Positions 7,601-58,900 of a DNA stretch of 64,000 bases are shown here, piece after piece. Below the pieces are notes generated by a model. It was not told the origin of the DNA, did no database searches, and worked only from the letters and a program-made list of their open reading frames with translations. Within the stretch, counting starts at the first letter, position 1; every line of letters begins with the position of its first letter. The stretch spans positions 6,014,001 to 6,078,000 of the forward strand of contig OY755178.1 of assembly GCA_963576735.1 (NCBI GenBank). The letters are read 5' to 3'. The translations under genes were made by a program, and so were the position numbers. This DNA is from Bedellia somnulentella. Its lineage: Eukaryota > Arthropoda > Insecta > Lepidoptera > Bedelliidae.

Positions 7601-7853
7601 TTTTGATTCCCGAATATAGCTGTTCTGCCTTGTCAAATTCCCGACGAGCGAAATAAGGACGCTCTTTATCCTCATACGGAATTAAGGATTTATGATTGGC
7701 AAGATACTCTATCCAATACGCTTCTAATGTTTCTAACTTCCGCTTGATATAGGTAGGGGCAGATTTTCGATCTGCTCCATCCTTTTTAATATTGTTAAAT
7801 AGTTTTTCCATGATAGACAAAAGTTCAGATTGTGCATTGTAGATATCCTCCAT
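1698..7853 (-). CDS. BEL/Pao retrotransposon gag-pol polyprotein with truncated env-like tail
   Basis: A single open frame of 2051 codons. In order: gag (DUF1759-like, around residues 275-360); a Cys/His-rich segment (about 507-574); an aspartic protease with DQGS (about 632); reverse transcriptase with YMDD (about 1035); RNase H; integrase with an HHCC zinc finger, SDNGTNF (about 1650) and WEKAVGSLK supplying the last acidic residue; then a DUF5641-like C-terminal domain. Beyond that comes a hydrophobic segment (about 1909-1930) resembling a signal or membrane segment, and an ectodomain-like stretch that ends soon after a furin-type RQRR (about 2034). The frame stops 12 residues later, so the fusion subunit is absent. 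The pol part is uninterrupted, which implies a fairly young copy. It is an endogenous element and lies in antisense to MARF1 but in the same orientation as the PEP-synthase-like gene that it probably interrupts. Confidence 0.93.
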   Translation of the reverse strand: MEDIYNAQSELLSIMEKLFNNIKKDGADRKSAPTYIKRKLETLEAYWIEYLANHKSLIPYEDKERPYFARREFDKAEQLYSGIKNYLNRLASEQAGETTERSVYDQLSVASNDKPSTSQARAETPNPCNQSERAGNTRSGGLQQQDDFMEEKYREATYSNTINKRSTGAFSRLDEMLNKQSINFKALMRTVKGINIDTIAEKWKFEDTLKQLQSRWSVIDSLHWEIEAIVDSEDESYEESFTYHENIYNKLKEEINIKLWSVSHREYITPQIDIPVFTGNYHQWVSFKNLFMEAVHLNPSLSKSQKMQYLKGKIRGDAERLIQHLQISSENYTTCWDILNHRYENKKLIFSSHLNIILNLPNLQHQSLIQIKKLHDTTKESLNAIKNLGVDISTWDPIIVHILAQKLDNETHADYVESLKQPRELPNLQELLEFLENKFTMLEQSRRKQDIPQKETYLNSNNYSGYPKKPHAMNANAYNKYPTYHRNSQSPKQFNKSYHVTAPIIKCPLCKLDHGLFSCQKFIEQSNEMKLRTLTRLDICKNCLYSHYGKPCFSVRRCRICGDCHNTLIHDATVRRPTTSNPASSNIRPIYRNQQNDSQVRTSHVTQENASEILLSTAMIKVRANDGSYKIMRALIDQGSQISLITEHAAQQLGLKRQHCKGVIFGVGENESNCKGKLNITIESIYNNFSLNIEVLIMNQLIKNLPNSSLPKQNWSHIYNIDLADKEFYISRPVDLLLGADIYSSIMQEGLIRGRSQYEPLAQRTQLGWLLCGKIQSFHCNVILTQIQDIKNFWEIEDISDKPELSSEDQKCIEYYQETTQRRPDGRYEVRIPMREGYEKELGSSKALAVAQFNNLEKSLIKRLELTKQYEDFMKEYIDLNHMKISYNDPSNTQCYLPHHAVLRAESSTTKVRVVFNASAKTTSGNSLNDLMHKGPNLQLDLQSLILKFRQYRYAYTADIEKMYRQIMINENDQSLQKIVWRDSFNHKLTDYQLMTVTYGTKAAPFLAMMTLKRLATDEKQNYPEAAKIVEKSMYMDDLVHGCDDIFQGQKHIYQLNQLLKAGGFTLRKWSSNEPQLLKNLREDINHSNDLYYFKFDSSSKTLGVQWNTNEDQFSFQHNINVQPVTKITKRKLLAEISKIFDPLGWIAPVVTKLKLLFQAVWRENLKWDDELPSKLKMEWLKMKEDINNINDIKIPRWIGTSQGVKFEIHGYCDASTKAYAAVLYARVIKEFQCSVVLIAAKTKLVPYNKSVSLPRLELCGAELLAKLTKKVMECFSNYEIKLYGWCDSMVVLGWLHGDQNRWKPFVTNRVKKIKEVIPADYWNYIKTNDNPADAASRGLTFSQLKNQSLWWKGPTYLSELSEINYQRINYSTNHEIKRSCNVVIKQDNISIINQLLEKYNSFTKVILILAWVIRALTPCRVQRPTYVTLPELNAAKLRIVKHIQYCEFSDDINNLKKKQTVNTNSKLLNLQPYLDSTGILRVGGRLRNADLPFETKHPMIIPHNHRLTQLIIDQAHELTYHGSVKLTLSTIRRKFWIVGGVNVTKKQLRNCVICRKNKPELNAQRMGDLPEARCNPAPPFYHTGVDYTGFVDIKLNKGRGAKTTKGYIAVFICMVTKAVHLELVSELTSEAFLAALRRMAARRGTPRYIYSDNGTNFIKANRVLQEGYDQLKHIFNDTFLKEITEMKIEFRFNAQTWASAGGLWEKAVGSLKYHLKRVIGSQKLTFEEYSTLLSQLEACLNSRPLCNLTENIEDLECLTPAHFLNGRVGGDVIETAEDARTRWNLITRSFKDIWKHWKSEYLVQLSAKSKWLKQRKNIEIGDVVIIHEENLPAGKWAMGRVVEVHPGSDGLVRVVTLKTKNGYLKRPITKISLLPLSTKTENNQNTKAINKEAKSEDTNRPPIKVKQNTQKTSFISMAISLLLFMTILSPSEAMFTLSKFDHNNKSLYFDPVANLRLIRDDWTMISYFNMAPYWEGFRATEKYLLYLQKICAIIQDHTRCNMILKQLEHDQKELQYYNELLLNQAFETREGFHSRQRRTYGETVILRRQK

Positions 7854-8496: not shown

Positions 8497-11400
8497 TTCC
8501 CAAGTCGTTGAAATAGCTTCTTGGACCATGGCTCTCTTGCTAAATCTTGAGCTACACCTTTCGCAGACAAATCTTTAAGATTGAACTGTGGATAAGGTGT
8601 GCTCCATGTCAGTTTAAATGCCACCTTTGACATTTGATTTGATTTATTTCTGAAACATCGCATTAATTCACTGTTAGTTTTCTTCTACGTATACAAATTA
8701 TCTTTTATTTGGAGTTCTAGTTCGAAGATTAAGTAAGACAATAAAGAGTAGGGACGTATTTATCCTAGGATAGTTGGCTAGAAATATCTTTACCCCAATA
8801 CAACCTACAAGTATAGTACATAAAAAATTAAGGGGTTCTCAAGGTAAATTAGTACGATATCATTGATCTTTGATTTTACCAACTCGTATTTTTGCTTTTC
8901 TATCCAGGTGGATAAGATGCTAAAGAGCTTATTCCATTACACTTTGTCGTTTCTGAATTAAAGGCGATAGGCCTGCCCCCTATCACGTGAGTACACTGTC
9001 CATGCAAAACGTGTGTACTCTGAACACCAGGTGACAAAGTCACGTGATGTTAGGAAGTATTAGTACCTCTGCCGACCCCTTCGGGGATATTCGGCGTAAA
9101 CGTTTATGTTATGTTATGTTATGTTTCTGAATTCAGACGTCCTTCGAAGTTACTGCCGCAGACGCTTGTTATTCCACTACACAAATATGTCTACTTTTCA
9201 GAAGCCTAGCGTTCTGAACGTTATTCCACTAGTCTGAATTCAGATTCTGTGGCTTTCAGACGTCTTCATTCAGACAAATGGAATAAGCTCTTAAGGTAAG
9301 CATGGCATAGAAGACTCATAAAGAAAGGTGTATAGTGTAGATTCAGTCGCAATGGAGAAGGCATATGCCCAACAGAGTGGACGAATATTGGCTGATAATG
9401 AATCCAACATAATGACTGTCTACTGAAATAAATAAAGGGATAATAATTGCCTTACACCATATCTCCATTAAATTTGATTTCCCATGCTCTCATCGGTATT
9501 AGGTTTTTGAATTCCAATCCACCCACATTGTACCCTTCTTCGTTTTCATTTTGCATAATATTACAATCAGGCATCGTGGGCAATGATAGGATGTCACCAT
9601 CTTTCAACTGAAAATATAAAGACAATTTCAAGATTTTAGCGCTTCCGGGGACAATCTGTATCGCTAGTTAATACAGGTTCCCTGACGTAACGTAAATGAT
9701 ATTACAGACATACTTTCGTGCAGTGTTAGTCTAAAATAGCACTAACACTATGTCATCTCTTTCCACAATGTTACAAAACAGGGCTTTTTGTTCATGAAAA
9801 CCTCATGTGGGGTTTATTACTAATAAATAAAGAATAAATAAAAGAAAGAATAAATCGAACCCGATTCCCGCCTGTGTCGAAATTTTTCTTTCCTTTATTT
9901 ATTCTTTATTTATTAGTAATAATCCCCACATGAGGTTTTCATGAACAAAAAGATTTAAATTATGTGATAGTTAGGCGTTTTCAACATTTGCATTCTATCT
10001 GAAAAGGTAGACAAGTGGCATTCCGAATTAGTTAAAATTCGGAGGTAGGAAACGCAAACACTACTTAAACGTGTAAAAGAAATAAAGGATAGAGGAATTT
10101 CGCACTGGCAGCCAATTGAAACGGTGGCTCAGTTGGCAGAGCGTCGGGGCGTATACCCGAGGTCGCGGGTTCGATTCCCGCCTGTGTCGAAATTTTTATT
10201 TCCTTTATTTATTCTTTATTTATTATCATTAAGATACTTTAATGGGGCTGTTTTGTCAAAAATGTTTTTTTGATTGAACGGCTGATTAAACTACTAGCCT
10301 TCCACATTAATTAAAAAAATGTTTTCTAGCTTATTGACAAAGCCGACGACGCAAACAGGGCGAAAACTTGTGTAACGCTTAAAGTGCTAACAGACGATCG
10401 AACATGTACGGCGCGCACCATAACACCGTGCACCGCAAGCGCTTCGAACCAGCCCGCACCAATATTAATAATAATTATGTGCGGCGAACCACGCTACACA
10501 CGTTCGTTTTTGGTACGGCCCGTACCACGAACACTGGTGCGCGCCGTACATGTTCGATCGTCTGTTAGCACTTTTATATTTCACGGTAGAAAAACATAAA
10601 CAAAACAGTAGGCGTTTATATATTCGATGCGAATCTGAATAGGGTAGCGTGGTGTACTACGCCCTATTCAGTTTATTATGGGTAAAAAATATGTATATTT
10701 GAGACATACGAGAATATACATATTTATTCGATCATATGCTAGAATCGGTATTTTACTCCAACTGCACATAATTATTCGTTTACTGCTTTCCCCCTATATG
10801 ATTCAGCGTAGTTATGTTGTTTCTGAAAGTTTACAGCTTTCCATGGTTAAAATAGGTTCTGAAACGGTTGAACCGTTTCGGAGCTTATTCAATACAAACA
10901 AAACTTTCACCGTTAATATAATAATTTGTAGATATGTGCTCAATTACGATGAACATTATCGATAGATTGCATTCCATTATCATCCGTAGCAACGCTCATG
11001 TTTTATTAATAATATGATAAATAATTGTATATCATTAAACGTGGGAAATGTAAACTCAACAAGCTGAAATCATATAATAATTGCTATTAGATAGAGACTT
11101 ATTATTAATTGCTGTGTAGTGTCGGCTTAGAATAGCACTACCCCATTTCTTCCGGTGGGTGTACGTAAGAGGCGACTAACGGTATTTGGGGCTTTTAAGG
11201 GATTTTTGGGCGATGCAGTTGGAGACCAATCACCAACAACCTTTATTTTACCATCTTTTCCCCACTTAACTTTCCAAAAGTGGCTGAGGAATTTCTAATT
11301 CCTTAGCTCTGGCTACCCCATCTAGGGATTTATAGCCGTGAGTATATGTATGTATGTAGATAGAGAGGGAGTGAAAAAATATCATTTTGATGAACTGAAC

Positions 11401-14400: not shown

Positions 14401-16522
14401 TAGGGATTTATAGCCGTAAATATATGTATGTGCATCTATGTATCAAATTATTGTTGAATTTCGATTACTAGACGACCACTATTGTTTGTTCTAATCCTTA
14501 ATTGGCTGGCCTACATCAATATGTATTTTCTAGTGTGATTTATTTACCAAGATATAACATACACGGAGGCTATGAGGCTGATTCACTGAGAGATAATGAC
14601 TACCTACCCAACCTAGACAAGAGTGAGGATAAAGATAAATATCGAGCGCCTAATATTTGCTGTGTAGTGTCGGCTTAGAATAGCACTACCCCATTTCTTC
14701 CGGTGGGTGTACGTAAGAGGCGACTAACGGTATTGGGGGCTTTTAAGGGATTTTTGGGCGATGCGGTTGGAGACCCAGCACCAACAACCTCTATTTTACC
14801 ATCTTTTCCGCACACAACTTTCCAAGTGGCTGAGGAATTTCTAATTCCTTAGCTCTGGCTACCCCTTCTAGGGATTTCTAGCCGTGAGTATATGTATGTA
14901 TGTATGTATCGAGCGCCTTGTCCAATGAATGAGCGAATCAATGTTTTGATAAAAGTGACATCTTATATATTGTCATAGTACAAAGATCAAGTTAGCCTCA
15001 AAATAAGTACAATAATGACTTGTGATATGGCGTATGTACTCGAAGATAAGTTAAACAATGTATAATTAACACATAAATAACATGTGAGACTAAGAAACAA
15101 ATTTTTATTATTATCCTCTTAATGTTGCCGTTTTAGGTGACTAGCTTCTCGGTCCGGAGATTGGGGGTTAGATCCCCGCTTCGAGCAAAATTTAAATGTT
15201 CGTTTCTTGGTCTTGGATGTTATTTATATGTGTATTATATTATATAAAATCATACATATACTCATGGCTATAAATCCCTTAACGGGGCAGCCAGAGCTTT
15301 GGAATGAGAAATTTCTCAGCCACTTTTGGAAGTTGATTGGGGACAAGATAGTAATAATAAATGTTTTTGGTGACGGGTCTCCAACCACATTCCCCAAAAA
15401 TCACTTTAAAAGCCCCTATACCCTTAGTCGCCTCTTACGATCACCCACGGGTAGAACTGGGGTAGTGTTATTCTAAGCCGGCACTACACAGCAAAGCCGA
15501 CACTACGCAGCAATTCATATAAAATCGTCGAGTAAATATCCCATAATATAAGTCTTACGTAGTTTTGGGCTAACTTGATCTGTGTATAATACCCACGTAC
15601 GTACCAGTACACAAATCAAGTAAACCCTAAAAGTGCTATATAACTTGTTGTAAAGATACCAACTTAATGAACAACCATACGAAAAGACGGAGTTGTGCTA
15701 CACTAAGTTGATACGACACGGCTCAATTAGCCTTAGAAAGTAATGGGCAATGTTTATCCTAACCCAAGCTTACATACTCGGCAAAGGGCATTGAACTTAC
15801 AAATAAAGAAAATAGCCACAGAATGGACATTACTTTGCAATGCGGAAAGTGCAACAACAAGCTGTGCCAATTCGGCTATTTATAATGAAATGACGCCCGC
15901 CGGGCCCTATGCAAATCTAAAACATTTAATTGGAGCACCAATGGTAATAAGCATAAATATAAGACGATTAATAGTATGAAATTAAATTAAATTTCTTTAA
16001 TTGACGTTGAGTAAACAACATTTTTGTTTTAAAACTCAATGAAATTATAAGTTTTTTTTTATAATTTATTTTAAATGACCTTTCTAACGTTTAAATTTTT
16101 TGTCGTTTTATTATTATTATTTTTTGTGTATGATGCGTCTTACATTTTGCCATAACACAAATAAAGCATCATCTATCATAAACGTACGAACACATTTTTT
16201 TATAGAGTTTGTCATAATATAACACATGAATACAACTACAAGTCTAAGTATTGAACCAATTTAATTAGAGTAAGATAGAAAATAAACCGGTAAGAAAGTG
16301 AGCACAATCACCTCACACATGAAAGAATCCCGTATTAATGCATTAATAATATAAACATACCTGTTGCAATTTCAAAAGAACATAAGCAAACGCAAACTTG
16401 ATAAAATAAAAGGCGTTCTTCTGCTGATAAACCCCCAAGACGGGAGACTTAGGGCCGACATTCAAAATCCGAAACATCACTATTAAAAAAGATGCGAAAA
16501 ATATTGAAATAAATTCAAACAT
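8497..16522 (-). CDS. Insect phosphoenolpyruvate-synthase-like protein, N-terminal exons (partial)
   Basis: Five minus-strand exons join in frame: 16522-16361 (54 codons, phase 0), 12472-12350 (41, phase 0), 11809-11702 (36, phase 0), 9607-9456 (50 codons plus 2 nt) and 8649-8497 (1 nt, 50 codons, 2 nt). Every junction has AG/GT and matching phase. The protein begins MFEFISIFFASFLIVMFRIL, a membrane anchor or signal segment. It continues with a region carrying VDSIYYNGTSRSGE, a VARRQNG motif, and PMRAWEIKFNGDMV, and ends in LAREPWSKKLFQRL. These motifs, in this order, match my memory of the N-terminal region of insect proteins annotated as phosphoenolpyruvate synthase or rifampicin-phosphotransferase-like. 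The catalytic PEP-utiliser domains would be further left, outside the window. The exon chain is well supported; the family name is moderately sure. Confidence 0.65.
8923..9292. mobile_element. MITE split by a SINE fragment
   Basis: The terminal inverted repeats AAGAGCTTATTCCATT (8923) and AATGGAATAAGCTCTT (ends 9292) define the element. Its interior is full of inverted CAGACGTC/TCTGAATTC motifs. A family B SINE 3' part (8960-9123) sits inside it. Confidence 0.65.
8960..9123 (+). mobile_element. Family B SINE, 5'-truncated
   Basis: The 3' half of the tRNA-derived SINE ends in (TTATG)n and is flanked by the 10-bp direct repeat TTTCTGAATT (8950-8959 and 9124-9133), a target-site duplication. 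5' truncation plus TSD indicates LINE-type retroposition. Confidence 0.8.
9784..10226 (+). mobile_element. Family C dimeric tRNA-like foldback element, older copy
   Basis: The order is left arm (from 9784), remnant of a first tRNA-like unit (only its T-arm half, near 9858-9885), inverted right arm (to about 9952), a spacer of about 150 bp, a second tRNA-like unit at 10118-10188, then a second right arm. This is the same order as in the dimer at 46286-46815. The A-box GGCTCAGTTGG and B-box GGTTCGATTCC are visible in the second unit. Confidence 0.75.
10381..10574. mobile_element. Short MITE with long perfect TIRs
   Basis: About 40 bp at each end are exact inverted complements, starting AAAGTGCTAACAGACGATCG. 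The centre is a short AT-rich stretch. The element is GC-rich against an AT-rich background. No coding capacity. Confidence 0.8.
11111..11358 (+). repeat. Family A repeat (reference copy)
   Basis: An interspersed repeat of about 245 bp starts GCTGTGTAGTGTCGGCTTAG and ends GCCGTGAGTATATGTATG with an ATGT microsatellite tail. An internal GGTTGGAGACC resembles a degenerate pol III B box, so it may be a SINE; I cannot assign the head. About 30 copies occur in both orientations. One copy inserted with a TSD (see 59314). Confidence 0.85.
12081..12292 (+). repeat. Family A, variant subfamily
   Basis: This is the subfamily with a CTACCCACGGGTGTCGTAAG head; it lies 58 bp from an exon of the PEP-synthase-like gene. 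Confidence 0.75.
12670..12919 (-). repeat. Family A copy
   Basis: A full-length inverted copy, with its ACATACAT tail at the left end. It faces the copy at 12081 across an exon. Confidence 0.8.
13194..13428 (+). repeat. Family A copy
   Basis: Near full length, moderately diverged, with a GTATGTGTGTG tail. Confidence 0.78.
13964..14188 (+). repeat. Family A, variant subfamily
   Basis: It has the CCCACGGGTGTCGTAAG head variant and internal deletions; the ATGT tail is at 14175-14188. Confidence 0.7.
14194..14433 (+). repeat. Family A copy
   Basis: It starts within 10 bp of the preceding copy's tail, so two family A copies stand head to tail here. Confidence 0.75.
14659..14909 (+). repeat. Family A copy
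   Basis: Full length and close to the reference copy, with a tail of four ATGT units. Confidence 0.82.
15122..15250 (+). mobile_element. Family D tRNA-like SINE
   Basis: A degenerate tRNA-like head (CTTCTCGGTCCGGAG, then GGGGGTTAGATCCCCGC) is followed by a TCTTGGATGTTATTTAT tail. A family A copy in inverse orientation follows directly. Confidence 0.65.
15251..15513 (-). repeat. Family A copy with duplicated end
   Basis: Full length; the terminal GCCGACACTACACAGCA unit is present twice in tandem at the right end. Confidence 0.78.
15514..16360. other. Intron sequence without recognised gene
   Basis: This is first-intron sequence of the PEP-synthase-like gene. A GC-richer segment at 15740-15980 contains an open frame that I cannot relate to any family. 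Confidence 0.4.
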
Positions 16523-26694: not shown

Positions 26695-29600
26695 TTAAGC
26701 GTCGCCGGTAGCCAAGAGATGTTTGTGCACGCACTCCTCCTTGTTGATGAGATGCGTGGTCTTGTTCACCAGCTGCATCAGCGTGTTGAGGTTGTTGGAC
26801 CACTCGTTCAGGCGATCTGATACGTCCACGTTTAGTCTGTGGAATGCAATATGTATTTAGGATTATGTAATCGCAAAATTATTATATGATTTTGCTTGCA
26901 AATTGTAAAAAACTTCTTATTACGCACTATCATCCAGTCACCCGTGAGCGGCAGACGCTTGTGCGTCACCTTGGCGTTCGACAACCAAGTAGGGGAACAC
27001 CTATTTAAACTACAATAAGTCACAGTCAACCTCAACCGAGTCGCCAGCGACTAGTCGACAGTGCGAAACGACGGTTAGGCAATCGTCAACCTTATATGAT
27101 TGCTGCGCATTTTAGTTTACACAAGGATACAATAGCTAGGTAACCATTATGTTCCCGAAATGTAAAGTTCGACAGATAATCGATTATAATGCACAGATCC
27201 ACCCCTGACTACGTATATTTAGCGGCCTTCGATTTTGTAGCAAATTGCAATCATCCATGTCAATGTCAAATTTGTATGCGTTGCGACAATCTTGCAACTT
27301 TCAACATTATAACCGTGAATTGTTTTCAAAGTTGCAGTTTATGACTTTCGAAGTCATAAATATGTGCACGTTTTCGACAGCGACAATCTTGCAACTTGTG
27401 ACACAATTGACGATTACAAAAGTCCGTAATCAGAGGTGAAAAGAGTGGAGCACCGTTGCTCACTTCAGGAGCTCAAATATTTTTACAATGAGGAGCAGTT
27501 GCAGAAGGGCAAGCACGTGCGCTATTTTATCGACACGATAACGGTTAGAATGAGATGGCAGTATACGATATTGAGTAAGTGCGTAAGAGATGGCTGCTTT
27601 ATCTCACCCGATAACTAGTTTAAACAACGCTCGTACTAGCCGGGCAGAAAGGCATACCACAGAGATATAACACCCACAGACACATGTTATATTTAATTTC
27701 GCGAAGTTTAACTAACTATAATTTGGATGACAACAAGTTTTTGGCATTTTAACCGTGAGCGTTTTCTTGCTTCTGTTACTCAGCGAATTTGACGTAAGAG
27801 TGAGCGCAATACCTGTTAAGTAAGGAAATACTCTTAAGGGATTCTTTTGTGGATGAAAAACTATTACCAACCATCCTATATTTTGCAATCTTGTCCACAG
27901 TAATATTCAAAAAGTGACAGTGGAGTTTCTGGTTTTCTTTCCTTTATTTATCCTTTATTAATTAGTAATAATCCCCACATGAGGTTTTCATGAACAAAAA
28001 CAACCAAAATATAAAATTGATATAACCATACCTGAAATGTACAAGCGAGGCAGGCCGGTCAATCTTCGCTTTCACAGACCCGCTGACAACCAATTGACTG
28101 AGCGCTGTTTCTGTCTCGCTCTCAGACAGACCGAGCAATGCGCTCATACGACTCAGTGTGATGCGCGTGTAGTACATTGACATTATGCGGATGTTCTGAG
28201 GGGAAAAGGCATATTTTAGGTATTATCATATTTTGTAGGCATGGGTTCAAATCATGTATCCGACCTAGATAATAATGTTAATGGTGAGGTTAGATTAGGT
28301 AAGCCCTGTTGCTGTCTCTCTCTCAGGCAGACCGAGCAAGGTTAGATCAGTAAAAAGGGCACTGCTTTTGATGTAGAGAGGCTACACCAATGTGTTAACG
28401 ATGCGGTGGGAGAAAACATCACTATTAAACCCACATAGCTATAGTTCCTAAAGGGCTAACAAGTGACAGTATAATCTTACAGACTATAGAGCTATCAAAC
28501 GTTGTAGTCAAAACAAATTCTCTAAAATATACTTACATGTTCAACAACTCTATTTTTAAGATCATTCCACCGCTCCTGGCCCTTCTCATCGGAAGAATCG
28601 AAATAAGGTGTTAGACGGAGTGTCTTCTCGTAAGTGCTGCATAGAAGATTCCATCTAATGATTTCGGGATTCATGAACAGGCCCAAAAGTTGTCTGAAAT
28701 GTTAAAGACTCCATCAGTATTGATTTTCATCTATATTCTAATGGTTTTAGTAAAATATAGATTCCTGAACCATTTTTTTTTTGGTTTTACAAATTGAATA
28801 CTGCATTTTATGATTAACCTTGATCATTATGGAATGTTAACAATTGAATAGTATTAGAAGAATTACTATTATTAATCATAGACGTCATAGCATTCAGAAA
28901 TAACGAATTATGATATTTAATATAATTCAAAAATAACGTGACTACTCACGACCATAAATCCCAAAAAGAGGTAGCCAGAGCTTTAGAGCTAGAAACTCCT
29001 CAGCTACATTTGGAATTTGATAGGGCAGAAGTTGTTAGAAATAAAGTATCGTTGGTGATGGATGAGTCTTCAACCAAAAACCGCTTAAAAAACCCCATTC
29101 GCTTAGGCACCTTTTACGACACCCGTGGGTAGAAAAGGGGTAGTGACGTAGCAAATTCAACAATTAAAATTGGAATAAAATCACAATTTCAAATACTCAC
29201 TTATATTCAGGCAATTTATCAAGTTCTTTATCCTCATTCAGTCTATGTGTTAAGTCAGCCTGTTCATTGTCGTAAGGGGCCAGCACCAGAAAGACGACAC
29301 TGCCAATAAGGGCATCCGAGCCCCCAGTAGTGCCCAGGGCCCGGAAATGTCTGCACACCGATAAATACTGCCCATTTTGCTGATCCACTGCAATCATTAT
29401 GCGGTAGAACTTCTCTTTTAACTCCTGCAATGTTTTCACTTCATTAAAAACAATGTCGCTAGTTTTAAACTTATAAGGGTGTTATCGTAGCAGCATGACT
29501 TTTACAAAATTTTATATACAGAGCATTTTACGGCTATGCATAGCTGAGAAATTTCTTATGTTTGCAGGTGAAAAAACCAAAAGAAGAGTTCATTTTGATC

Positions 29601-37966: not shown

Positions 37967-40900
37967 ATGAGTTTGTCGAGGAGTAGTCGCGAACACGAGC
38001 ATGGAAGCAAAAGTGGACGTAGTCAATCTGCTCATGGTTTGGCTCCTACGAATTCCATTATGAAAATACCTCTGCCACCTCGCCTTTGGTTAACAGGTAA
38101 CAACCTTCAAGATTTGTTTTATCTCACATATTTCAAATATCTTAAATAAGATCTCTTATTATGTGTACGGTTCATTAAGCATATCTGTGACCCATGGAAT
38201 TGGAATTGAAGTATGATGAAAAAGCACTTTTCAGCTGACCATTACATTATGTAATTTAATTTATAATTCTGTTGATTCCAACTGGTCTAGTGATGAAATC
38301 GTAATGCCATCATCTTTTAAAATCATATTACCTAATTATGTACTATCAGAATTTTTAAGATAATGTTTATTTTGTATTGACAAATAACCTACTCTATTGC
38401 TTTAAAGTAAAAGGGAGTAATCCAAATAATATTATAAACATGAAAGTTTAGATGTTCGGATGTTTGTGTGTTTGAGATAAAAAGGCTTCTCAATTACAGA
38501 ATGTATATGGATGTACACATACATACATATACTCACGCCATTTGTTCCCATTGGGGTAGGCAGAGACTATTGATCGCCACTATGCACGATCCTGACAAAC
38601 CTCTCTAGCTTCGTTTACATCCATCAATCTTTTCATACATGCTCTTTTATTCTTCATACTTTGGATGCCAGCCTCAAAAAGGCTGGCGTCCGTATATGGA
38701 TGTATGCATGAAATTTAGCAGAATGCTAGAAAATGACCTAAATTATAACATAGGATACCTTTTATCCCGGAAAAAATTGTCCATTAAAATATTCACGCCT
38801 GATTGAACTCCGAGTACGGGAAAAAACACCTTAAGTTTGGCATAAGCAAATTTACAGTACATAGTCTGTTGGGTCAGCTAGTATTAAGATAATCCAACTA
38901 TTAAATATTAAAAGACTTGTTTAATATATATGCATATACTTCAAATGTTGTGTATAAATCTTAACATACACTATGAAATCAACGGAAAGATAGTTTTCAA
39001 TCGGTGAACAGTGTTAAAGAATCAGGGATCCATCTCAAATACAAAATATAAGGAATAAATTTCATGCACATTCTTTTAATTACTTAGAAAGATATTTATA
39101 TTTGATAATTTAAATCTTTTTGTTCATGAAAACCTCATGTGGGGATTATTACTAATAGCCCAGCCCACTGGGCGTATACCCGAGGTTGCGGGTTCGATTC
39201 CCGCCTGTGTCGAAATTTTTCTTTCCTTTATTTATTCTTTATTTATTAGTAATTATATTTCAACCAAAATTTTAGTAAAATTATGTATACTATAAATTTG
39301 TCACTGTTTCACTTTATGTGGAAAAGTTCCCTACCCAGAGTATACAAGAACTTTTTTTGCATAAATTTGGACATTATCTTTTGCTTTATCTTTTTATTAT
39401 TCCAAGGTGGATTGTCAATCTGCCAGAAATTACCATACTTAGCTATGTCCGAAATTGAATGGAGACCATTTGGCTGTTTATGCATCCCAAAAGAGTTAGG
39501 ATTATCTATGCCAGTTATTGCCTTTGGTAGCCATTTCAAAGATCTAATGTTGTTATTTTTAGTTTGGAGCATGAATGCTACTGTTCTGTCTGTCTGCATT
39601 CACTATAGATTAGACCACATGGTGAGGAAATATATAATCTGACTAAGTATATATTTATAACTTTTTGAGCTTATTGACTTATTTTTTTATCAAATAAAGC
39701 AACTAACTAAAGGGTGATAAGTTAGAGAAAGATCTATCTTTTGATGGGGTATCTTAGCTGAATAGAAATAAAACTAAATCAATTATAGATTTGTCGGATC
39801 TGTAAAACTCATTACATATGAAAACTATTCTGACAATGCTATTGACTTAGTTGCACAGTCTTATGCACATTGAAACCAGGCTTTTCTCCATTATAGTCTT
39901 TATATGGTGTTGGTATGTCATGGAAAATATTTATTCAAAATTATAAGGAAAGCTTGATCACTTTGATTCATTTTTTTTATCATGATGTGATGTGAACTTC
40001 TGTGTTGGTACATATTTTTGTTTTAATAAACACATTTACTTTGCTGTGTAGGAAAATTTATAGGAGTAGAAAATAGGAATTAGCAATGCCTTAGTTGCTT
40101 AATAAAGTATCTTTAGAGATGGGTAGGCAATCAACCACAAATCTGTAAAAAATCCCTGGGTGGTATAATTAGTTGCCTTATAAATCATTGAGATTATTAC
40201 ATGCAAACACTGCATGGTAATTTAGATGATGATATAATTACTGCCATTTAATCCATCAATAAAATCTTCCTCAACATACTATCAGTCACATCAAATAATA
40301 TCCGACTCATTCAAATAACTTTATCCTAACTGCATTCAATATTACATATATAGTTATGATTATTAAATAAAAGCTTCGTTAACATTATTTTCAATAGATA
40401 CAATATATCTCAATTAATTTTAATTATCTAATGATTATCACATCAACAAATTAGTAGTCAATTAGTATTAGGAATCCTGCTAATATTTAACTAACTTGTG
40501 CTCATTCCATTAATTTGGATTGGAGTAATTAAAGTGCTTTAATCACTACTCTTTATCATTTTGGCAAATCACTCTTGCTTCCTTCCACATTAATTAATCT
40601 TCTTGTAAATGCTCTCTTAATTAATTCCCCAGTTTGTAAAAAAGAACAATCCACAAGACCATTTCTTACTAATATGAACATCTAAGTTCATATCTATCTA
40701 GTAACAATAGTGTTGTATGAGGGGATTTAGGGTATTGAAGATTTTCGCAATGCAATTCTTGGGCCACCGACAACCTTAAAACTACAATCTTTTCCATAAA
40801 TAACTTTCAAAATTAGCTGAGGAATTAATAATTCTGAAACTCTAGGTATCCTTTTTTGGGATTTATAGCCATGAGTTCACAATTGAATTGAACAGTATAT

Positions 40901-43900
40901 GCATCAATTGATGCCATAAATCTGTTGCGTTCTTTTCAACCATTTGCTCCATGTTCCGAAACACTTAAACAGTCCTTTTTATATCTTACCATATTATCTT
41001 TCACATTTCAATGAATATCACAACTATATAACATAATACTTATTACATCTCTTAAATTAATAAAATCTATGCTTCACTTCTATTAAAATGATCAAAATCT
41101 CTTTCAGATGTATCAGAGGACTCCTCAGACGAGATGCGGGAAGAGTATGTGCTAAGTTCTGATAGGACAAGACTTCGTTCCCGCTACCGACATAAGACAG
41201 GGAAAATGCCTGTTAATATGCCCATTGGGATATTTTGGGATATAGAAAACTGTCAGGTAGAATATATATTTTTTGTATTAACACTGTTTCTAGTATGAAT
41301 CATATAATCACCATGTATAAGTAAGAGGATTCAGTTTTCTCTTAACTACATAGCTTGTTTTAGGCCTATGTTGATCGATTTATATTTGTTGTATTAGGAT
41401 AATAAAAAAAATATATACGGTCGAATTGAGAACACTCCTTTTTTTGAAGTCGGTTAAGAAGGAGAGGAAAAAGCATGGTTACGACCAGGACTTGTCAGTT
41501 ACTTTATTATGTTACCACACTTTTTCAAATCTAACAAAAGAAGAATTTAGAATAGGCATTTTTTTGGCTGTTTAGTTTTGTTTTAGAATAGTGACTTTGG
41601 ATTTTGAGGCTTTTTAAGCGACTGTTGGGTGATATCGCCGAAGACACATCAGAACCACCCTTTACAACATTTTCCCCACTCAACTTCCAAAACTTACTAT
41701 TACCACAGATAATATAATACTATACTAGTACAGATACCCAATCCCATACAACGAAATGTGATGTGCTTAAAAACCCTTATTCGGCGGGCTATTTTCTAGT
41801 TCTTTATTGTTCGCTAGATGGCGCTAAATTCGCAAGCATCGCACCAAATGAAAAAAGCACATAGTAGTTCAACTTAAGGTCACAGATGTCACTAAAAAAT
41901 GATTAAAACAAAATGCATAACAAAGCCCGATATCATAACTCGGCTAATACTAGGAAATGGCGGCTGCGGGGCGCGCGGGGCGGGGGTGCCTCGGTAACAC
42001 GAGCGAGACAGATTTTATTACTTTATGACTTTCTTTCACTAAGTGTTTATTTGCAAATATGGTCAAGGACAAAATCGTCGACAAGGCCAATTGCGTACGA
42101 GTATTACATCCTGATCTGTTTGTAGATTTTTGTTGTCGATATTCTTCTCTGCTATGTGTCGGCTTAGAATAGCACTACCCCATTTCTTATCGTGATTGTT
42201 CGTAAGAGACGGCTAAAGGTATTGGGGCTTTTTGAGTGATTTTAAAGCGATTCTGTTGGAGACCCACCATCAAAAATCTTTGTTTTATAATCTTATCCCA
42301 ACACAAGTTCCAAAAGTGGCGAACGAATTTCTTATTCCGAAGCTCTGGCTACCCCTTCTAGGGATTTATAGTCGAAAATATATGTGTGTATTCTATTTAT
42401 TAATATTTAATAAACAGAATACACACATTTATTTATTTAATAACATTGTGCAAGACGTATTCGTGCTGTAGTGACGACGTATAATAGCACTACTCCGCAT
42501 CATTCCGTCAGTGAGGTATTGAGCGACTGATTTGAGTTGTATAGTTTGAGGGTTTAATTTCATTGATTGGTTGGCGATGTGGTGATAGACCACGAATATT
42601 TAATAAAAAATTGTATCTTCCAAGCTGACATTCCACAAGCATCTGTGGGTTTGTCGCATTCAAACTTCTGGTTATTACTTTAGAATAACTATAATGTCAG
42701 CTCAAAATAGTATCATTTAATATTATAATACATTATAATTAATTTTATTGGGTTATGTGGCTCGAATGTTAACCCATTTCCAAAAACAATGATTCTTTTA
42801 TAATCTATTGTCCACATAAAGCGGCTAGTAATTTGAAAATGTTGAAAGTAGTATGATATGTAATTTAATGTTTTTTGACATGAATTCCTCATGTGGGGAT
42901 TATTACTCATAAATAAAAGATGTTATTAAAGGAAAGAAAAATTTCGCGCTGGACGCCAACTGACATTGTAGCTCAGTTGGCAGAGCGACGGGGGCGTATA
43001 CCCGAAGGTTCGAACCCCGCCAGTGTCGAAATTTTTCTTTCCTTTAATAACATCTTTTAGTATGATATGTATTGAAAAAATCTATAGCTGGTTTCAACTG
43101 CAATCATGCGGACATTTAACTCAAATTCAAACGTTAACGCCGAATATCCCCGAACGGGGTTGGCAGAGGTACCAATACTTCTGATAATCACGTGACATTG
43201 TCACCGGGTGTTTAGAGTACCCACATTTTGCTCGGAAAGTGTACTCACGTGATAGGAGGGGGCAGGCCCATCGCCGTTTTGTACAAATATAGTACAATGT
43301 CCCAGGGTTAGAAAACTAGTCGTCTGCAAGATAAGCGGTGTTCTACCCACTGAGCTACTAAGTCGTCATTAAACTACTTATTTTATTTTATCTAGGTACC
43401 TACGCGCTACACCTACTACCAGTACAGAATACTTATCCTATTTGTAAAAAGTATTTATCAATCTTGCCACATCACATACTGACATACATACGAGGGCTGC
43501 TATTTATGTATCCGGAATAAAAAAAAGAAACAAACAAATATCAATTAATATGGTTTTATTGCTTCTCAAAATATTCGCCGCTCAGATCTATACACTTTTG
43601 CATGCGTTGAAACCAATTTTCATAGCACTTTTTCCACTCAGACTGAGGTATCTCCAAAACGTGCATTTTGAACGCATCGACTGCCTCTTCGCGGCTCGAA
43701 AAACGTTGACCACGTAATTTTTTCTTCACATTTGGAAATAAATAAAAATCATTGGGTGCCAAATCAGGGCTGTACGGCGGATGACCTGTCAATTCGATCT
43801 TTTGAGCTTCTAAAAACTGAGTTGTGACGGCCGACCTGTGACAGCTAGCATTGTCGTGATGCAGAATGATTCTACGTTGTCGGTTAGTCTTTCTTATTTG

Positions 43901-46900
43901 TTCAAAGACTTCCGGCAAACAAATGGTCGTATACCACTCCGAATTAACAGTTTTACGATTCTCTAAAGGCACTGTAGCTACATGGCCATTTATACCAAAA
44001 AAACAAGCGACCATTTGCTTCAATGTGCTTTTTGCACGAATAACTTTTGTTGGGTTCGGCTCATCTTGGAACACCCACACCGTGGACTGCTGCTTAGTTT
44101 CGGGGTCGTAAGCGTAGATCCAAGATTCGTCACCTGTGTAGATATTATAAACAGCTTTTGACGCACCACGGTTGTATTTTTTTAACATTTCTTTGCACCA
44201 ATCGACACGAGCCTGTTTTTGATCAATACTCAAGTTGTGCGGAATCCAACGGGAGCAAATTTTTTTTACAGCTAAATGTTCATGAAGTATCTTATGTATG
44301 CTCGTCATACTAATGCCCAGAGATGCCTCTATCTCACGATATGTAACATGACGATCTTGAGTTATTAGTTCCCGGACAGCATCGATGTTTTGAGGTACAA
44401 CGACCGTTTTAGGGCGACCTTCTTTAATTTCATCAGTAAGCTTAGATCGTCCACGATTAAACTCGCTAAACCAGTGATACACAGTGGTCTTTGAGGGTGC
44501 TTCATCCCCAAAAGTCGAAGTAAGCTGATCGATGCACTGTTTTTGAGTTAGACCACGCCGAAAATCGTAAAAAATCATGGCACGAAAATGTTCACGAGTT
44601 AAATCCATGGTGGTGAAGACACGCAATTTTCAAAATGACGCTACGATGTGAAAACAATTGACAGTCACATAAAAATAAATGTATTCTAAAGCTAAAGAGT
44701 TCTATTTTTAAATGATGTAATTACTTTTTAAATTATTGTTCTGTAAGTGGCCAGTTCCGGATACATAAATAGCAGCCCTCGTATTATTATTTCTCATACC
44801 GTTGGAGTAACAGAAAATATAAATCTCATTGTTTAATCATTATGCAAAATGCTGTATACCTGGCTGTTTTAAAAAAAAACATTATTACATACATAAATAT
44901 ACTTACGACTATGAATCCCTAGAAGGGGTAGCCAAAGCTTCGAAAAAGTCAATCACTGAGTTATTAATATTAATTCAAACGTTCACACCGCAAATCCCCG
45001 ACGGTAGTGCAGGCAGAGGTACTAATACTAAAAATCAACTTTCTACAACAAAGTACTAACAGATATAAAAATAACATACATACTCACGGCTATAAATCCC
45101 AAGAAGGGGTAGCCAGAGCTTCAGAGCTAGAAACTCCTCAGTCACATTTAAAAGTTGATGGTATAAATATATTACTTGGGACACTTGTCTTTTTAAGCAC
45201 AGTCTCTTTTTGGTCCAAACGTGTACGCCGAGGTCGTTAAAAAATTAAAATCACCTAAAAAGCCCCTATACCCGTGAGTCGCCTCTTGCAATCACCCACG
45301 AGTAGTAATAGGGTAGTGTTATTTTAAGTCGACAATTATCACCAATTCGATTACTTGGATTGACGCAAATCAAAACAAGTAAGTTACGTCAATAAACACC
45401 ATCTCATTTTGGCGTCATCTATTGTCAGAAGTTGAAATCACTAAACATTTTAGTTAAATAGATGTAGTTCTACAATAATCATTTGGGAATACAATTTCAT
45501 ATAAACAAAAATACAGTTTTTTTATATTTTGTTTATATTTGTAATAATTTATGTTTTATGGTATTAAGTGACAAAATAAATTACCATGTTATATTTATCT
45601 AACTGTCTTTTGGCTTTTTAAACGATAATTAGCCACTTTAAGTTTTTATTTTAGAAGTCGACTATATCTTAACTCCATCTTTTGAGCGTAGAGGTAACTA
45701 AAAACATTTTGTATGAGATGGTATACCATGCTATTACATTTCTAATTATAAAAATATGGCTACCCCTTATTAGTAGCTGTGAGTATATGTATTGTATTTA
45801 TTTATGTACCATCGTATTGAGTAATCTCCTTTTTGGCCCCGGCTACCTCTCTTCCCCTTCACAGTTTTCTAATCCTAAAACGTCTCCAAACTCCAGGTGC
45901 CGCGTGGATGTTCAGCGTCAGATGTGGTCGCGGCCATCAGAGCCAAGTTCGTGACGGGACGACGCGAGGCGGACTTCGTAGTCGTGTGCGATGTCAGGAA
46001 GGAGTCCGCTTATAGGTTACAGGAATTGAATGACGCACAAGTATGTATTTATTATATTTACTTTTCTATGCTAAATATCTTTGCTAGGTTTCAAGGGATT
46101 TAGCATCTAGCGATGTAAATGTTGTAGTCTATCATTTATCAAACATACATATGCCAAGTACGTGACGGGACGACGCGAGACGCACAAGTAGGATTTTATT
46201 ACATACATACGTATACTCAGTTTTTAGGATCAAATACTAAGATTTTATTACTTTTCTGTTTGTCCTTACAATATATCTAAGCCTGATAATTTAATGTTTT
46301 TTGACATGAATTCCTCATGTGGGGATTATTACTCATAAATAAAAGATGTTATTAAAGGAAAGAAAAATTTCGCGCTGGATGCCAACTGACACTGTAGCTC
46401 AGTTGGCAGAGCGACGGGGGCGTATACCCGAAGGTCGCGGGTTCGAACCCCGCCAGTGTCGAAATTTTTCTTTCCTTTAATAACATCTTTTATTTATGAG
46501 TAATAATCCCCACATGAGGAATTCATGTCAAAAAACATTCAATTATGTGATAGTTAGGCGTTTCCAACATTTGCATTCTATCTGAAAAGGTAGACAAGTG
46601 GCCGTCCGAATTAGTTAAAATTCGGAGGTAGGAAACGCAAAACACTACTTGAACGTGTAAAAAAGAAACAAAGGATAGAGAAATTTCGCGCTGGATGCCA
46701 ACTGACACTGTAGCTCAGTTGGCAGAGCGACGGGGGCGTATACCCGAAGGTCGCGGGTTCGAACCCCGCCAGTGTCGAAATTTTTCTTTCCTTTAATAAC
46801 ATCTTTTATTTATGAATATCTAAGCCTGTATTGTAAAAACACGACTACAGTGTCGAAAGGAGTCCGTTTTGAGGTTACAGAAATTAAATGACGCACAAGT

Positions 46901-52900: not shown

Positions 52901-55900
52901 AAAGGTGCTAAGAGTGCATCTCACTAATGCCTTTCTTAAGTTTCCTACGCCTGATCATGCTGCAAGGTAAGCTATTTTATTTTTGTAATAGTAATTATAT
53001 TTTTTTTGTTTTGAATTAATAGAAAATATGCTCTAAGGAGGGGGGCGGTAGTCTGAAGAATACAATAGAATGTATGAGAAGGTTGATAAATATAGATGAT
53101 GCTAGAGGATTGTACAAAGTGGCGATTGGGCGATTGATAATTGCTGCCTGCCCCATAAGGAATTAATGGCGTGTATGTGTAGGTGTTTTGCTGCTTGGTA
53201 CTACAATATGAAGAGAAAACCCACATGGATGATTTATACTTAGCCATGTCATAGCATTCCCCATGCAAAAGTGGGTTCTCTGTACGCCTGGTGAATATTA
53301 TTTTTATATTGGTGAAGATTTATCATTGGTACACGAAAAATTATATAGTAGTTTATTAGTTATGTTTTGCTGTTAATATTCCGAACAAAATAAAATAAAT
53401 AAATAATATGTCATGTTATATTCAGATATATAAGTGCATCTGCTATCCCATTTGGGGATGTATGGCGTGAACGTTGAGTTTAAGTGTTTTACCACATATT
53501 TAGGATTTGTATTAAGCGACAGCGATACTTCTGTTCTCTGTAACCTGAGCACGGACATAGCCCGCATGCACTAAGTAAAACGTAGGTGGGACTAGGTGAA
53601 AAAATGTCAAGTGATATGTAGAATTTGCTGTGTAGTGTCGGCTTAGAATAGCACTACCCCTTTTCTTCCGGTGGGTGTACGTAAGAGGCGACTAACGGTT
53701 TTGGGGCTTTTTAAGGGATTTTTGGGCGATGCGGTTGGAGACCCATCACCAAAAACCTTTATTTTACCATCTTTTCCCCACGCAACTTCCAAAAGTGGCT
53801 AAAGAATTTCTAATTCGTTAGCTCTGGCTACCCCTTCTAGGGATTTATAGCCGTGAGTATATGTATGTATGATATGTAGAAAAATGTATACCTCTACGTA
53901 TCGGATAGACATTGTAAGCTCTGAGTAAGACAAGATTATAACAATGCAAATCCTCCGAAGATTTTCGAGGTAAATGTGTTTTTAAAGAATCAATTGATTA
54001 GACTCATTTACCTCACCGCCCTTAGCATCTTGTTGACGCAGGTTAATAAAACGATTCTATTTGTTCTTTAGAAACTTCATTTATCTCCAGTGGATTCCTC
54101 AGCCTAGCCAAGGTTCAAACATTGGTTACAAATGAAAAAAAACCTCAACGTAGTGTAAATGTTCAATTTTATATGATCTACATACATACATGCATATACT
54201 CACGGCCATAAATCCCAAAAAGGGGTAGCCAGAGCTTCAGAGCTATGATAAATACAAATACTGACGGTCATAAATCAGCCAGAGCTGGAAACTCCTCAAA
54301 TACACTTGGAAGTTGATAAGGGACAAGATGTTAGAAATAAAGTATTTTTGGTGATGGATCTCCAACCGCATCGCCGAAAAACCACTTAAAAAATCCCATA
54401 CCCTTATTCGCCTCTTTACGACACCCGTGGGTAGAAAGGGGTAGTGACATTCTAAGCCAGCAATATACGGCAATATAATTATAATGGGTAGATAGTCAGC
54501 TGGCTTACACCATTGAACTTGTCTCAATACATACATACATATACTCACGGCTGTAAATCCCTAGAAGGGGTAGCCAGAGCTAAGGAATTAGAAATTCCTC
54601 AGCCACTTTTGGATGTTTCGTGGGGAAAAGATGGTAAAATAAAGGTTGTTGGTGATGGGTCTCCAGCCGCATCGCCCAAAAATCCTTTAAAAGCCCCAAT
54701 ACCGTTAGTCGCATCTTACGTACTCCCATCGGTAGAAACGGGGTAGTGCTATTCTAAGCCGACACTACACGGCAATTAAATAAATAGCTTATTTGACCCA
54801 TAGACGTTGCATTTAGAAGTGAAGCACACTGTATTTGCATTGTGTAACGTAACTTGGTACGATTATACAAAACCGACTTCATTAATATAATTGGAATACA
54901 AAATATTATTATTATTTGTAGTGAAACGAATTAGGTAAGAGATATAAAAAAGGGCCATATTTTTTTTATTTGGTAAGTATAATCTATACTCGTGTTAAAG
55001 AGGCTGTCTCTGAAGTGAAACTATAGCTAGCGTAGTTGATTAGTTTATGTGTATTGCTCACTGTGCAAAATCCTAAATAACATTCGAGACTTATTCATCA
55101 AACACACGCTCGATGTAACATGAGTATGTATGTATGTCATACTTGATCAATTTGATTCTACAATTTACCACTCGATCTACATCACTCCTTTTTCTTAAAA
55201 ATAAAGAAAATCATTTAAACATCGATGTGTGCATTCGACAATTTAAAAAAAGATAATTGCATTCTTGTTTTATTTAAAAGACAAACTTTGATTTAGAACT
55301 TCAAAATCTTACCTCCGATTGTTTGATTATATTACGGTCTTCCCTAAAACCATGGAAGTTTTAAACAAAATGCTTAATGATCTCAATGGAGTTTCTGAGA
55401 GAGTATGTCTTAAAATTAATATGGACAAGACAAAAATTATGTCAAGCAACCATGTCGTACCCACTTCTATTGGACTTGGAAACCGAGGGTCTACTTTTAC
55501 ATAGAGAACGATAACAGGCATACTTATCTCTTTTAATTTATATTAAAATTTATTTCTATCTCGTTCGCACATAGCGAATATTCGGATTTTCATATTTCTG
55601 ATAAGTGAGTATACATAGAGATATTCGACGAATCCAATGCTACCTTCGTAGTTATCTTTGGTTTCATCGATTAGAAAGCGCCTATATTAATTTTGTTCTA
55701 CATAGAAAATTGGTGGTTTGTCCTTTAGGTGGCTTTTTAAAACCATAATGTACCACCATGTACCTAAGGAGTTATAGGCATATAGCTTTTTTAAGTTCGG
55801 CACAAATTAAAATGCTTGAAGGATGAAGGATAATAAGAGTAAACGGTTTTCTCTTTTCTGTTAGGGTCTATTATTTATGGTTAAAGCAACTATTAACTTT

Positions 55901-58900
55901 ATTTTAAAGTCAGTTTCAGCCTTAATCAAATCTTAAAATCTATAAGAGGCCACTATCATTTTTCTTTATCACCGTAGTTCTAAAAGGAACCAATAGGCTT
56001 CGGTTAGGGCTTATAGTCCTCGGGAATACTAGTAAGAGATGATTTTACTGGAAATCCAGCATAAAGTTTCAGCTAATTTATCTTTCTTTCCACACTCAGC
56101 TTCGAAAAAAATTAAAAGAAATCAAAAATATTTCAGGAAAATTGGGCCAAAGAAAAGAAAGATGATATTTTGTTAGATATACCTATATACGCCTTGAATG
56201 TAACTAAATATCCTGTATTACAAGGATCTAGCTTTCTTAACTGTCACCACTCGTTGTGATAACAGTAATTCTTTAAAATATTTATCACTGGAATTGGACC
56301 AACCAATGTAATTCAGTTTATAGCATTATAGAGCATTCACTTGTAAAAAAGATTTATTTGCCTTTTTATTTACAAAAGTTTATAACTAGGCAGATATAAG
56401 TTTATAACTAGATAGATATAAGATAGTGTGCATACATATATACATACATATATACTCACGGCTATGAATCCCTTGAAGGGGTAGCGAAAGCTAGGGAATC
56501 AGAAATTCCTCAGCCACTTTTGGAAGTTGCGTGGGGAAAAAATGGTGGAATAAAGGTTGGTGATGGGTCTCCAACCGCATCGCCCAAAAATCCCTTAAAA
56601 GCCCCAATACAGTTAGTCGCCTCTTACGTACACCCACCGGAAGAAAAGTGTTATTCTAAGCCGACACTACACAGATAGTGCTATCTAACCTATCTTGAAA
56701 ACTAAAGAGGGATACTTACAAATCATTAAAGCAAATCGTCGTGACTTTACTTAAGTTTTTATTTCTATGGATCTAAAATGTACATTAATAAAAGCTACAA
56801 ATGTGGTTGCATTTAAATAAGCAAACTGCAGCCTACATTAAAATTTTGAGGCTGTATGATTCAAACAAAAATCATCAGTCAAATACTCAATAAATATCAA
56901 ATTATGTATTAATTATACATTAATATCATAAGAAAGTATCGAACACCATTATATCCTGGTTAATATATTGCAGATCAAATTTGTGTATGATTGATAATAA
57001 GAAGCACCAAATGCCACGTAAGTGAAACAATAGACGTTGAAAACGGTTTTTTGATGCATTATATTTTATCAACGGGTAGCATAAAAGATGGAGTAGATAA
57101 CAAAAGTATCTGCTTAACCGTATTCTAGTTTTGCAAACACTTCATTAATTTTGGTCGTTATCATTGTTAAGTACTTTCAATAATTATTTAACTGGCCTTC
57201 TTCGTGACTAAGCTCCGATAAAATTTTGTACAAGCTGTCCGACACTGTTCGCACGAGAACAGTAGTGTTATTTTCAAACATTTAAGGTTTTTTTCAATCA
57301 CTGCTCATCCTTTATGAAATTTAGCGTGATGATGTGTTTTTCTATGACTATGACTTGACTATGGTTTTCCAAAAGGTTGTAGGTGTCTTACACAAAAGAA
57401 TTTAAAAAATAGTTGAGTAGTTTCCGAGCCCATTCATTACAGACAAACAAATATTTTCTCTTTTTAATAAGTATATGGATTAACTTTAATTTGCATAAAA
57501 CATTTCGTTCTGTGTTTGGTCAGTTTAGAATTACACTAATCCATTTCTCCCCGCGGGTGTCGTTTAAGGTGACTCAGGGTTTTGGGGCTTTTGAAGTGAT
57601 GGTTTGCGTGATGTGGATAGATACTCTAATCAAATTCCAAAAGTGGCTGAAGACTTTCTAATTTTGCAGCTCTAGCTACCCCTTTCTGGGATAGCTGTAA
57701 GTATATACAAAAGAGTAAAATGCTTATTAATGTTATCTCGAGAACAATTCGAAGTTTAAATCAAATATTCAACTACCAGAAAACCGTTATTATCTTTAAA
57801 GTTAAAGTGGTGAAACGTGCTCAACGTTTATTTTATTAATCGTAGGTAAATAACTAAAAACTCTCGACCGGAAATTTGAATAAACTACGAACGTTAATTT
57901 GAATTTTAAAATTTCGAATCGGTTTCATTAATTTACTTGCCAACTCACAGCTGATTTGTACAGCACAGAGTAGAAGATCATTTTTTTACACGTAAATTTT
58001 TGACCTACCGTCCATTTGAATTAATAGTACTTATATGACCAGTCGCTGACGTATTCTAGTTCATTGCAACTTCAGACACAGGCGGGGCAACTGTGATACA
58101 TTTTGTAGTTAACAAAATTTAATTTATTTAATATCTTAGTACACATGCTTGTAGTTGATATTTTACTGTGAATTTAATGATGGTGTTCCAAGGGTAAGTT
58201 TTTCACGTTTTTAAAATTTTCTTCATAGATTTTTGTTTAAATGTATAATTTCTGCCTATCCCTCTTTAAAATGTAAAAGGTATTCATTTTGCAGCTATTT
58301 TCAATGTAAATTTTCAATTTTCTAACCATATTCTTGACAACGTGGCGGTGACGTAAAATTTTGTGACCAAAATTTTCTACTTACTTACCAAGTTACTAAG
58401 TTATTTAGCTTGTGAAAATGTAAAAAGGGATAACATTAATCGTATTAAAAAGCGAAGTCCCGAAAATCCACGTCATATGGCCGTTGAAAACCGTTACGTC
58501 ATATTTTTACCACGAGTTGGATAACCTATCTTTTTCAATCAGCTGTTCTTTTACTAATCAAATACATAATAAACATTGAAATACGTCTGTAAATCAATTG
58601 AATACGGTTTATTTTGTTTAATATCTACTTCGGTTGATGAAAATGATAGTTGGAAAATAGACCATGTGCTTCGAAATTTAACCTCTTCAGTACTAAAATT
58701 TAAAAGTTAACTAATAGAAAATCATATTTTACTACGGGTTATTTTACGTTGTTGGAATTTACGTTACGTTAGTGACCGTTATAAAAAAAACGTGACTGGT
58801 GGATGACGAAATGATTTGGTGGATTCATACTTATGTGTTTTTAGCAGAACAGCGTAAACGAGAATATTAACATCTATAAATCCTTTTAATCCTACACATG

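Follow-up and report, generated by a model that had tools for sequence, protein, structure and literature searches.

Penelope-like elements (PLEs) and retrozymes usually carry a hammerhead, and the mechanism by which PLEs insert is still an open question. For the Penelope elements of Adineta vaga, the available part of PMC3846280 describes inverted plus direct pLTRs, a tail and a target-site duplication. In the Anolis PLE named PAc, both strands of the target are cut and extended and two internal start sites account for the tail; the active PLE protein starts in vitro inside the RNA at two adjacent sites, the later steps being yet to be validated according to the available part of that study (PMC11167929). 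PLEs have also been proposed, on shared features, as the movers of retrozymes (PMC7229834, available part).

The family described here, from the genome of the moth Bedellia somnulentella, is probably a non-autonomous, tRNA-bearing retroelement of the Penelope type, retrozyme-like and without a hammerhead core; we put the probability of this reading at about 0.7. It is filed as a variant, set apart by a tRNA-like domain, by copy number, by the shortness of the unit and by having no hammerhead core, and a search of the open-access literature returned no tRNA-bearing non-autonomous PLE. An earlier note on this DNA had pointed to a conflict between foldback arms and retroposon features, which is real, and had known of no family that combines the two; PLEs already do.

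The window, a stretch of 64,000 nucleotides (G000:C9:6014001-6078000 of a 549-Mb assembly), contains at 46286-46815 a 530-bp insert bounded by a perfect 13-bp target-site duplication, ATATCTAAGCCTG (46273-46285 and 46816-46828), as had been noted before. Its arms (46286-46372 and 46460-46546) are complementary at 86/87 positions, and because the lone mismatch is the seventh base counted from the outer end, the inner 80 bp are perfect, in agreement with the exact 80-bp arms reported earlier. The hairpin 46286-46546 has a folding energy of -169.8 kcal/mol (z -24.8 against 200 shuffles). The two tRNA-like units of the earlier note were recovered by both methods used: 46388-46461 and 46704-46777 each score 55.1 bits with Rfam RF00005 (gathering score 29) and both are called by ARAGORN, with unclear isotype and a four-base anticodon call that fits the 8-nt anticodon loop. 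At the second copy there is an additional, shorter and imperfect inverted repeat between P and the beginning of R. The list of open reading frames for the insert holds none of at least 120 aa. Matches in the genome define a repeating unit of about 316 bp, arranged head to tail, which we divided into four segments in the order T-R-M-P, with lengths of 74 (T, tRNA-like), 85 (R), 123 (M) and 33-34 (P). The insert is laid out as follows.

46273..46285, plus strand: target-site duplication, left copy, 13 bp
46286..46372, minus strand: inverted arm, an antisense copy of R85 back to R1 plus two bases, with the fixed end F as its outer edge
46370..46387, plus strand: inner junction and leader (part of P), with bases able to pair with the D arm
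46388..46461, plus strand: T, tRNA-like domain, copy 1
46462..46546, plus strand: R, 85-nt segment with both copy-start zones (V at R31-46, F at R78-85) and a five-T run near its start
46547..46669, plus strand: M, best conserved segment, with a stable three-way fold; putative protein-binding part
46670..46703, plus strand: P, leader; its predicted pairing partners are the start of R and the D arm
46704..46777, plus strand: T, tRNA-like domain, copy 2
46778..46815, plus strand: R ending at about R38, the variable end V
46816..46828, plus strand: target-site duplication, right copy, 13 bp

The number of units per insertion ranges from less than one (window 42863-43058) to more than ten (locus L078, where the array runs off its stretch). 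The element had been called dimeric; this is correct for the two tRNA-like copies of the given insert, but the dimer is only one state of an array of 316-bp units, from under one to many. A unit of 316 bp is too short for the RT plus GIY-YIG reading frame of an autonomous PLE. Four further copies lie in the window.

42863..43058, plus strand: second insertion of the family, with F arm, T and R ending at R31; duplication AGTATGATATGTA at 42850-42862 and 43059-43071
39103..39256, plus strand: third insertion, subfamily B, inverted, with outer ends F and V and a weak duplication
9784..10225, plus strand: fourth insertion, subfamily B, inverted, about one unit, without clear duplication
27933..28002, plus strand: fragment of subfamily B, R only

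Subfamily B, to which the window copies 9784-10225 and 39103-39256 and the loci L070-L072 belong, has periods of 312-314 bp. When one window copy of each subfamily is compared, gaps excluded, A and B are 96.6% identical in M, 90.3% in T, 87.5% in P and 86.7% in R. Other long inverted repeats, with 78-93% complementarity, cluster at 12666-15495 and 53625-56653 of the window, which also holds two open frames on the minus strand that, by eye, we take to resemble a BEL/Pao retrotransposon polyprotein (2,051 aa, 1698-7853) and a mariner transposase (356 aa, 43556-44626).

Exact matches to a 15-mer of the anticodon arm of the tRNA core number 7,940 + 7,684 = 15,624 in the 549-Mb genome, and none was found with the reversed pattern as control; the family is multicopy, as the earlier note had supposed. 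Among the first 100 matches listed, neighbours within 400 bp are minus-plus in 14 cases, plus-minus in one, plus-plus in seven and minus-minus in seven: same-strand neighbours lie about one unit apart and opposite-strand neighbours almost always adopt one mirror order. In viral contigs, the tRNA-core pattern and a 21-base M pattern each gave 0 matches; a 17-base M pattern hit 5 viral and 20 bacterial stretches, which we regard as chance for a 17-mer.

The whole unit is predicted to fold into two domains (circular fold z -8.3 with 100 shuffles, on a sequence one base short), with P paired to the start of R and the D arm; the M segment has a fold z of -5.3. The folding energy from leader to R is -50.0 kcal/mol, against -31.5 for the cloverleaf alone in that stretch, and the cloverleaf is therefore predicted to be hidden in a long RNA. 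The tRNA-like tip on an 80-bp stem, imagined earlier for the transcript, is restricted to copies whose inner junction lies beside the tRNA-like domain. By eye against the consensus, the pol III boxes proposed earlier are present, box A as TAGCTCAGTTGG and box B as GGTTCGAACCC in subfamily A (one base off) and GGTTCGATTCC in B. The five-T run directly after T should terminate pol III. Since the insertions extend over many units, their template was something other than a short pol III transcript. An Rfam search of the unit gave no ribozyme family even at E<=10, and the hammerhead core CTGANGA..GAAA is absent from both strands of the window's unit. The M segment contains CTGAAAAG and GAAACG.

Insertion ends and duplications were surveyed in 46 genome loci, which are best matches and thus a non-random sample (one is the given copy), and in the four more window copies. 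After filtering for flanks, Ns and at least two segments, 49 clusters were kept; the R fragment of the window and the loci L007, L072 and L078 are among those excluded. Ends were placed by BLAST and take in bases common to element and target. A duplication score of at least 10 was obtained for 32/49 insertions, compared with 0.55% in a control in which flanks of different loci were paired. Target duplications, whose presence across copies the earlier note had left to be checked, occur in many of them: the 31 accepted ones measure 10-19 bp (mean 13.3). A mirror-image structure, whose outer ends lie at R78-85 (F) on one side and at R31-46 (V) on the other, was found in 30/32 duplication-bearing insertions, or at 29 of 31 distinct sites, since L017 and L058 share one target site; the remaining two (L028, L050) are not inverted, and two F ends or two V ends occurred in 0/32. 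All 30 inverted, duplication-bearing insertions are extended (tailed) on one end only. Apart from the non-inverted L079, which has an A run beside it, the ends inspected show no recurring poly(A) or simple-repeat tail. In the complete set, by our reading of the table, 37/49 insertions are inverted with an F end (R75-86) and a V end (R28-46), including complex ends in L064 and L075, three are inverted with other ends (L049, L065, L069), and nine are not inverted or unclear (L028, L042, L044, L050, L062, the second cluster of L073, L076 twice, and L079).

Against the selection of best matches, the first six clusters along contig C1 were taken in map order. All six are inverted family members; L108-L111, four of them, combine F and V ends with duplications of 12-13 bp, and L106 and L107 are without clear duplication. 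L017 and L058 (C16:12.954-12.958 Mb) have identical flanks and duplication, lie about 3 kb apart and differ in inner structure, the outcome of either a haplotype duplication in the assembly or a rearrangement of the palindrome after insertion. Near the family array of L078, the frames on both strands contain a long G or C homopolymer.

Both cut sites were read on the priming strand in 28 insertions that are inverted and have an exact duplication (without L004 and L058). GTT follows the cut in 8/28 on the F-priming strand and in 8/28 on the V-priming strand, where composition predicts 1.9% (P about 4e-8 each), and at the other offsets from -8 to +9 it occurs in at most 2/28; the assigned boundary may move by a few bases where element and target letters coincide. 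A T precedes the cut in 20/28 on the V-priming strand and, not significantly, in 12/28 on the F-priming strand. One GTT motif on both strands, about 13 bp apart, suggests that one enzyme makes a symmetric cut of both strands.

The inner junctions differ among insertions and fall within T, P, M or R. At several of them a palindromic or shared stretch is found: GGGTTCGAACCC, a palindrome in the tRNA-like T arm, in L010, L058 and L068, and, in the given copy, AAATTTCG, which P has in common with the complement of the start of R. Pairing between two antisense copies is presumably possible only through such palindromic or shared sequence. The R85|M1 boundary is crossed in the given copy, in other multi-unit copies and in L073, so the templates of those copies were tandem or circular and R85 is not the sole RNA end. 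L073 had given a first hint of an RNA monomer ending exactly at M1; this was ruled out, as its copy runs past M1 into R85-72, 14 more bases, before the junction.

Taking these observations together, we propose the following sequence of events. The RNA would be a tandem or circular string of the 316-nt T-R-M-P unit, and a borrowed protein would make one cut in each strand of the DNA, at AT|GTT-like sites some 13 bp apart, so that both 3' ends of the cut target could serve as primers. Copying would begin at F (R78-85) from one DNA end and at V (R31-46) from the other, each zone being used once per insertion, and may start within the RNA rather than at a processed 3' end. The two antisense copies would converge after running along the repeated RNA for variable distances, and would be joined at common bases, for example GGGTTCGAACCC (T arm) or AAATTTCG (P and the complement of the start of R), leaving a mirror-image insertion flanked by target duplications. 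The acting enzyme would be a PLE protein, with M as its putative binding site. The arms, which had been taken as belonging to the tRNA-like unit, are not part of it but form anew at every insertion, and are best explained by two antisense copies primed at the target ends and joined inside.

The genome that houses this family also houses a PLE. In L074, about 1.2 kb from a family insertion, there is an endonuclease-like piece of 172 aa, in which we take a GVY..YIG stretch to be the motif of such enzymes. Pfam and NCBIfam searches assigned no family to this piece, and a PDB search gave weak, unrelated matches only. It was assigned as PLE because of its 24 homologues (E<=0.01): PF26215 is present in 12 of them, and the names of some refer to a GIY-YIG or reverse transcriptase domain. 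Eighteen of the 24 are named, 17 being from butterflies or moths and one from Escherichia coli; the latter, P0016, lies on a contig of 2.6 kb, bears the name "GIY-YIG nuclease family protein, partial [Escherichia coli]", shares 46% identity with the insect piece and is perhaps insect DNA within a bacterial record. With another homologue (P0001), a search of the genome gave 137 scored PLE matches among 1,537 candidates, many with identical score and ten in 810-aa frames; strong matches in the genome number at least 137. Head-to-tail arrays with 2,600-bp spacing and 810-aa frames were found at G000:C16:17335235-17343868, C483:646-6679 and C23:9695137-9698570, and the genome holds a very abundant, tandem and apparently recent autonomous PLE.

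At the tandem joint of this PLE in L112, the end of the ORF is followed by about 200 nt and then by the next start codon. The spacer (reverse complement, about 140-160) contains CTGAAAAG..CGAAACGTC, which we take to be near a minimal hammerhead but with A at the expected G8. BLAST of the 316-bp unit against the joint gave no significant similarity (best E 1.1). The one inverted PLE pair examined (C12:4.06 Mb) is without a duplication or clean paired ends. Over 31 columns, the F site aligns with PLE ORF +108 (shuffle P about 0.01); this alignment, spotted post hoc, is of interest because copying by PAc begins 111-118 nt inside the ORF (PMC11167929, available part).

The insertions bear the signature of the PLE class, with inverted plus direct ends, a one-end tail, tandem units and both strands cut and primed, and the same GTT motif at both cuts (8/28 each) corresponds to AT-rich cutting by the same enzyme, itself putative. 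Against the Penelope reading we count that the mean duplication of 13.3 exceeds the 8-10 bp given for PLEs in the available sources, that sequence similarity between unit and PLE is marginal, with no significant match by BLAST, that the inverted PLE pair at C12:4.06 Mb gave no clean ends, that 9/49 insertions are not inverted or unclear and three more have other ends, that T before the cut is clear on the V-priming strand only, and that the unit has no hammerhead core. The resident PLE is rather likely to be the mover of the tRNA-bearing element. We also lean slightly towards seeing here SINE-like parasites of PLEs: a tRNA-bearing family of more than 15,000 core copies living off a highly active PLE; the recent insertions of the family would record a symmetric, dimer-like AT|GTT cut about 13 bp apart, one end always F and the other V, with copies welded at shared or palindromic bases including the T arm.

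Twin priming is established for L1. If the family were an ordinary tRNA-type SINE that depends on a LINE, and twin priming were unusually frequent, this would account for inverted insertions with variable duplications and microhomology, for a tRNA-like domain with pol III boxes and for the A run adjoining the non-inverted L079; this explanation is unlikely, since the same two start zones, once each, are found in the 30/32 duplication-bearing insertions that are inverted, the same GTT motif lies at both cuts, units continue beyond the start site and, L079 apart, the ends inspected lack a recurring poly(A) or simple-repeat tail. A retrozyme-like self-cleaving RNA circle, with R85 as the linear 3' end and copied later by PLE or LINE enzymes, is somewhat less probable still, and differs from the Penelope reading solely in the origin of the F end. 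Tandem units of about 300 bp, strongly self-paired in the circular fold (z -8.3), and the start of M at the F site speak for such a circle, and PLEs are named a strong candidate to move such elements (PMC7229834, available part); the missing hammerhead core, the lack of an Rfam ribozyme at E<=10 and the read-through across R85|M1 speak against it.

Long inverted arms and target duplications are also what a foldback or MITE-type DNA transposon with a captured tRNA-like sequence would present, and the earlier note had taken the foldback arms as suggesting a DNA transposon. The outer ends, however, are unlike (F and V) in 30/30 inverted, duplication-bearing insertions, and duplication length (10-19) and inner junctions both vary, so that this origin is very improbable; a DNA transposon with terminal inverted repeats is excluded by the unlike ends and the variable duplication length. 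Retroposition, the other side of the earlier note, fits the variable target duplications and the RNA-level units. Direct repeats containing a tRNA-like sequence would also suit a TRIM of the Helenus type, an LTR retrotransposon with a tRNA-like LTR, but the available part of PMC10886601 gives 4-bp duplications in animals, against 10-19 bp and inversion here; the chance of such an origin is negligible, and a Helenus-type LTR element was excluded by duplication length.

Under the Penelope reading, insertion-level evidence from the family would test the proposal that PLEs move retrozymes (PMC7229834, available part). A small, young and very numerous family with the PLE end signature would offer thousands of natural insertions from which rules can be read, namely the cut motif, its spacing, one start zone per DNA end and the junction chemistry. 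It is also an example of how a genome can acquire, in bulk, long perfect hairpins and tRNA-like annotation calls.

Among known non-coding repeats, the SMalpha retroposons of Schistosoma have a pol III promoter. According to the available parts of the respective sources, SMalpha resembles our element as a SINE-like non-coding repeat, and differs from it in holding a hammerhead (PMC8490949). The lepidopteran tRNA-SINEs PxSE1-3 (PMC8010984), Metulj and ZenoSINE (PMC6685494) share with it a tRNA-like or likely tRNA-derived part and high copy number; compared by description only, they differ in their 5' heads and A-rich, simple-repeat or LINE-related tails, and inverted insertions are not described in the parts available. 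Helenus likewise has a tRNA-like sequence in repeated units, but is an LTR element with 4-5 bp duplications (PMC10886601, available part). Metazoan non-LTR retrozymes, in the available part of PMC7229834, match in their non-coding tandem units of about 300 bp, from dimers to multimers, their self-paired RNA and a suspected PLE partner; our element departs from them by lacking a type I hammerhead and by having a tRNA-like domain and a two-ended insertion signature read at base level. From PLEs, as far as the available parts of PMC3846280 and PMC11167929 describe them, it differs by the lack of a protein and of a hammerhead core, by its tRNA-like domain, by a unit that measures 316 bp where theirs takes kilobases, and by duplications of about 13 bp, and it is like them in its inverted plus direct terminal copies, one-end tail, tandem units, target duplications, cutting and priming of both strands, and AT-rich targets.
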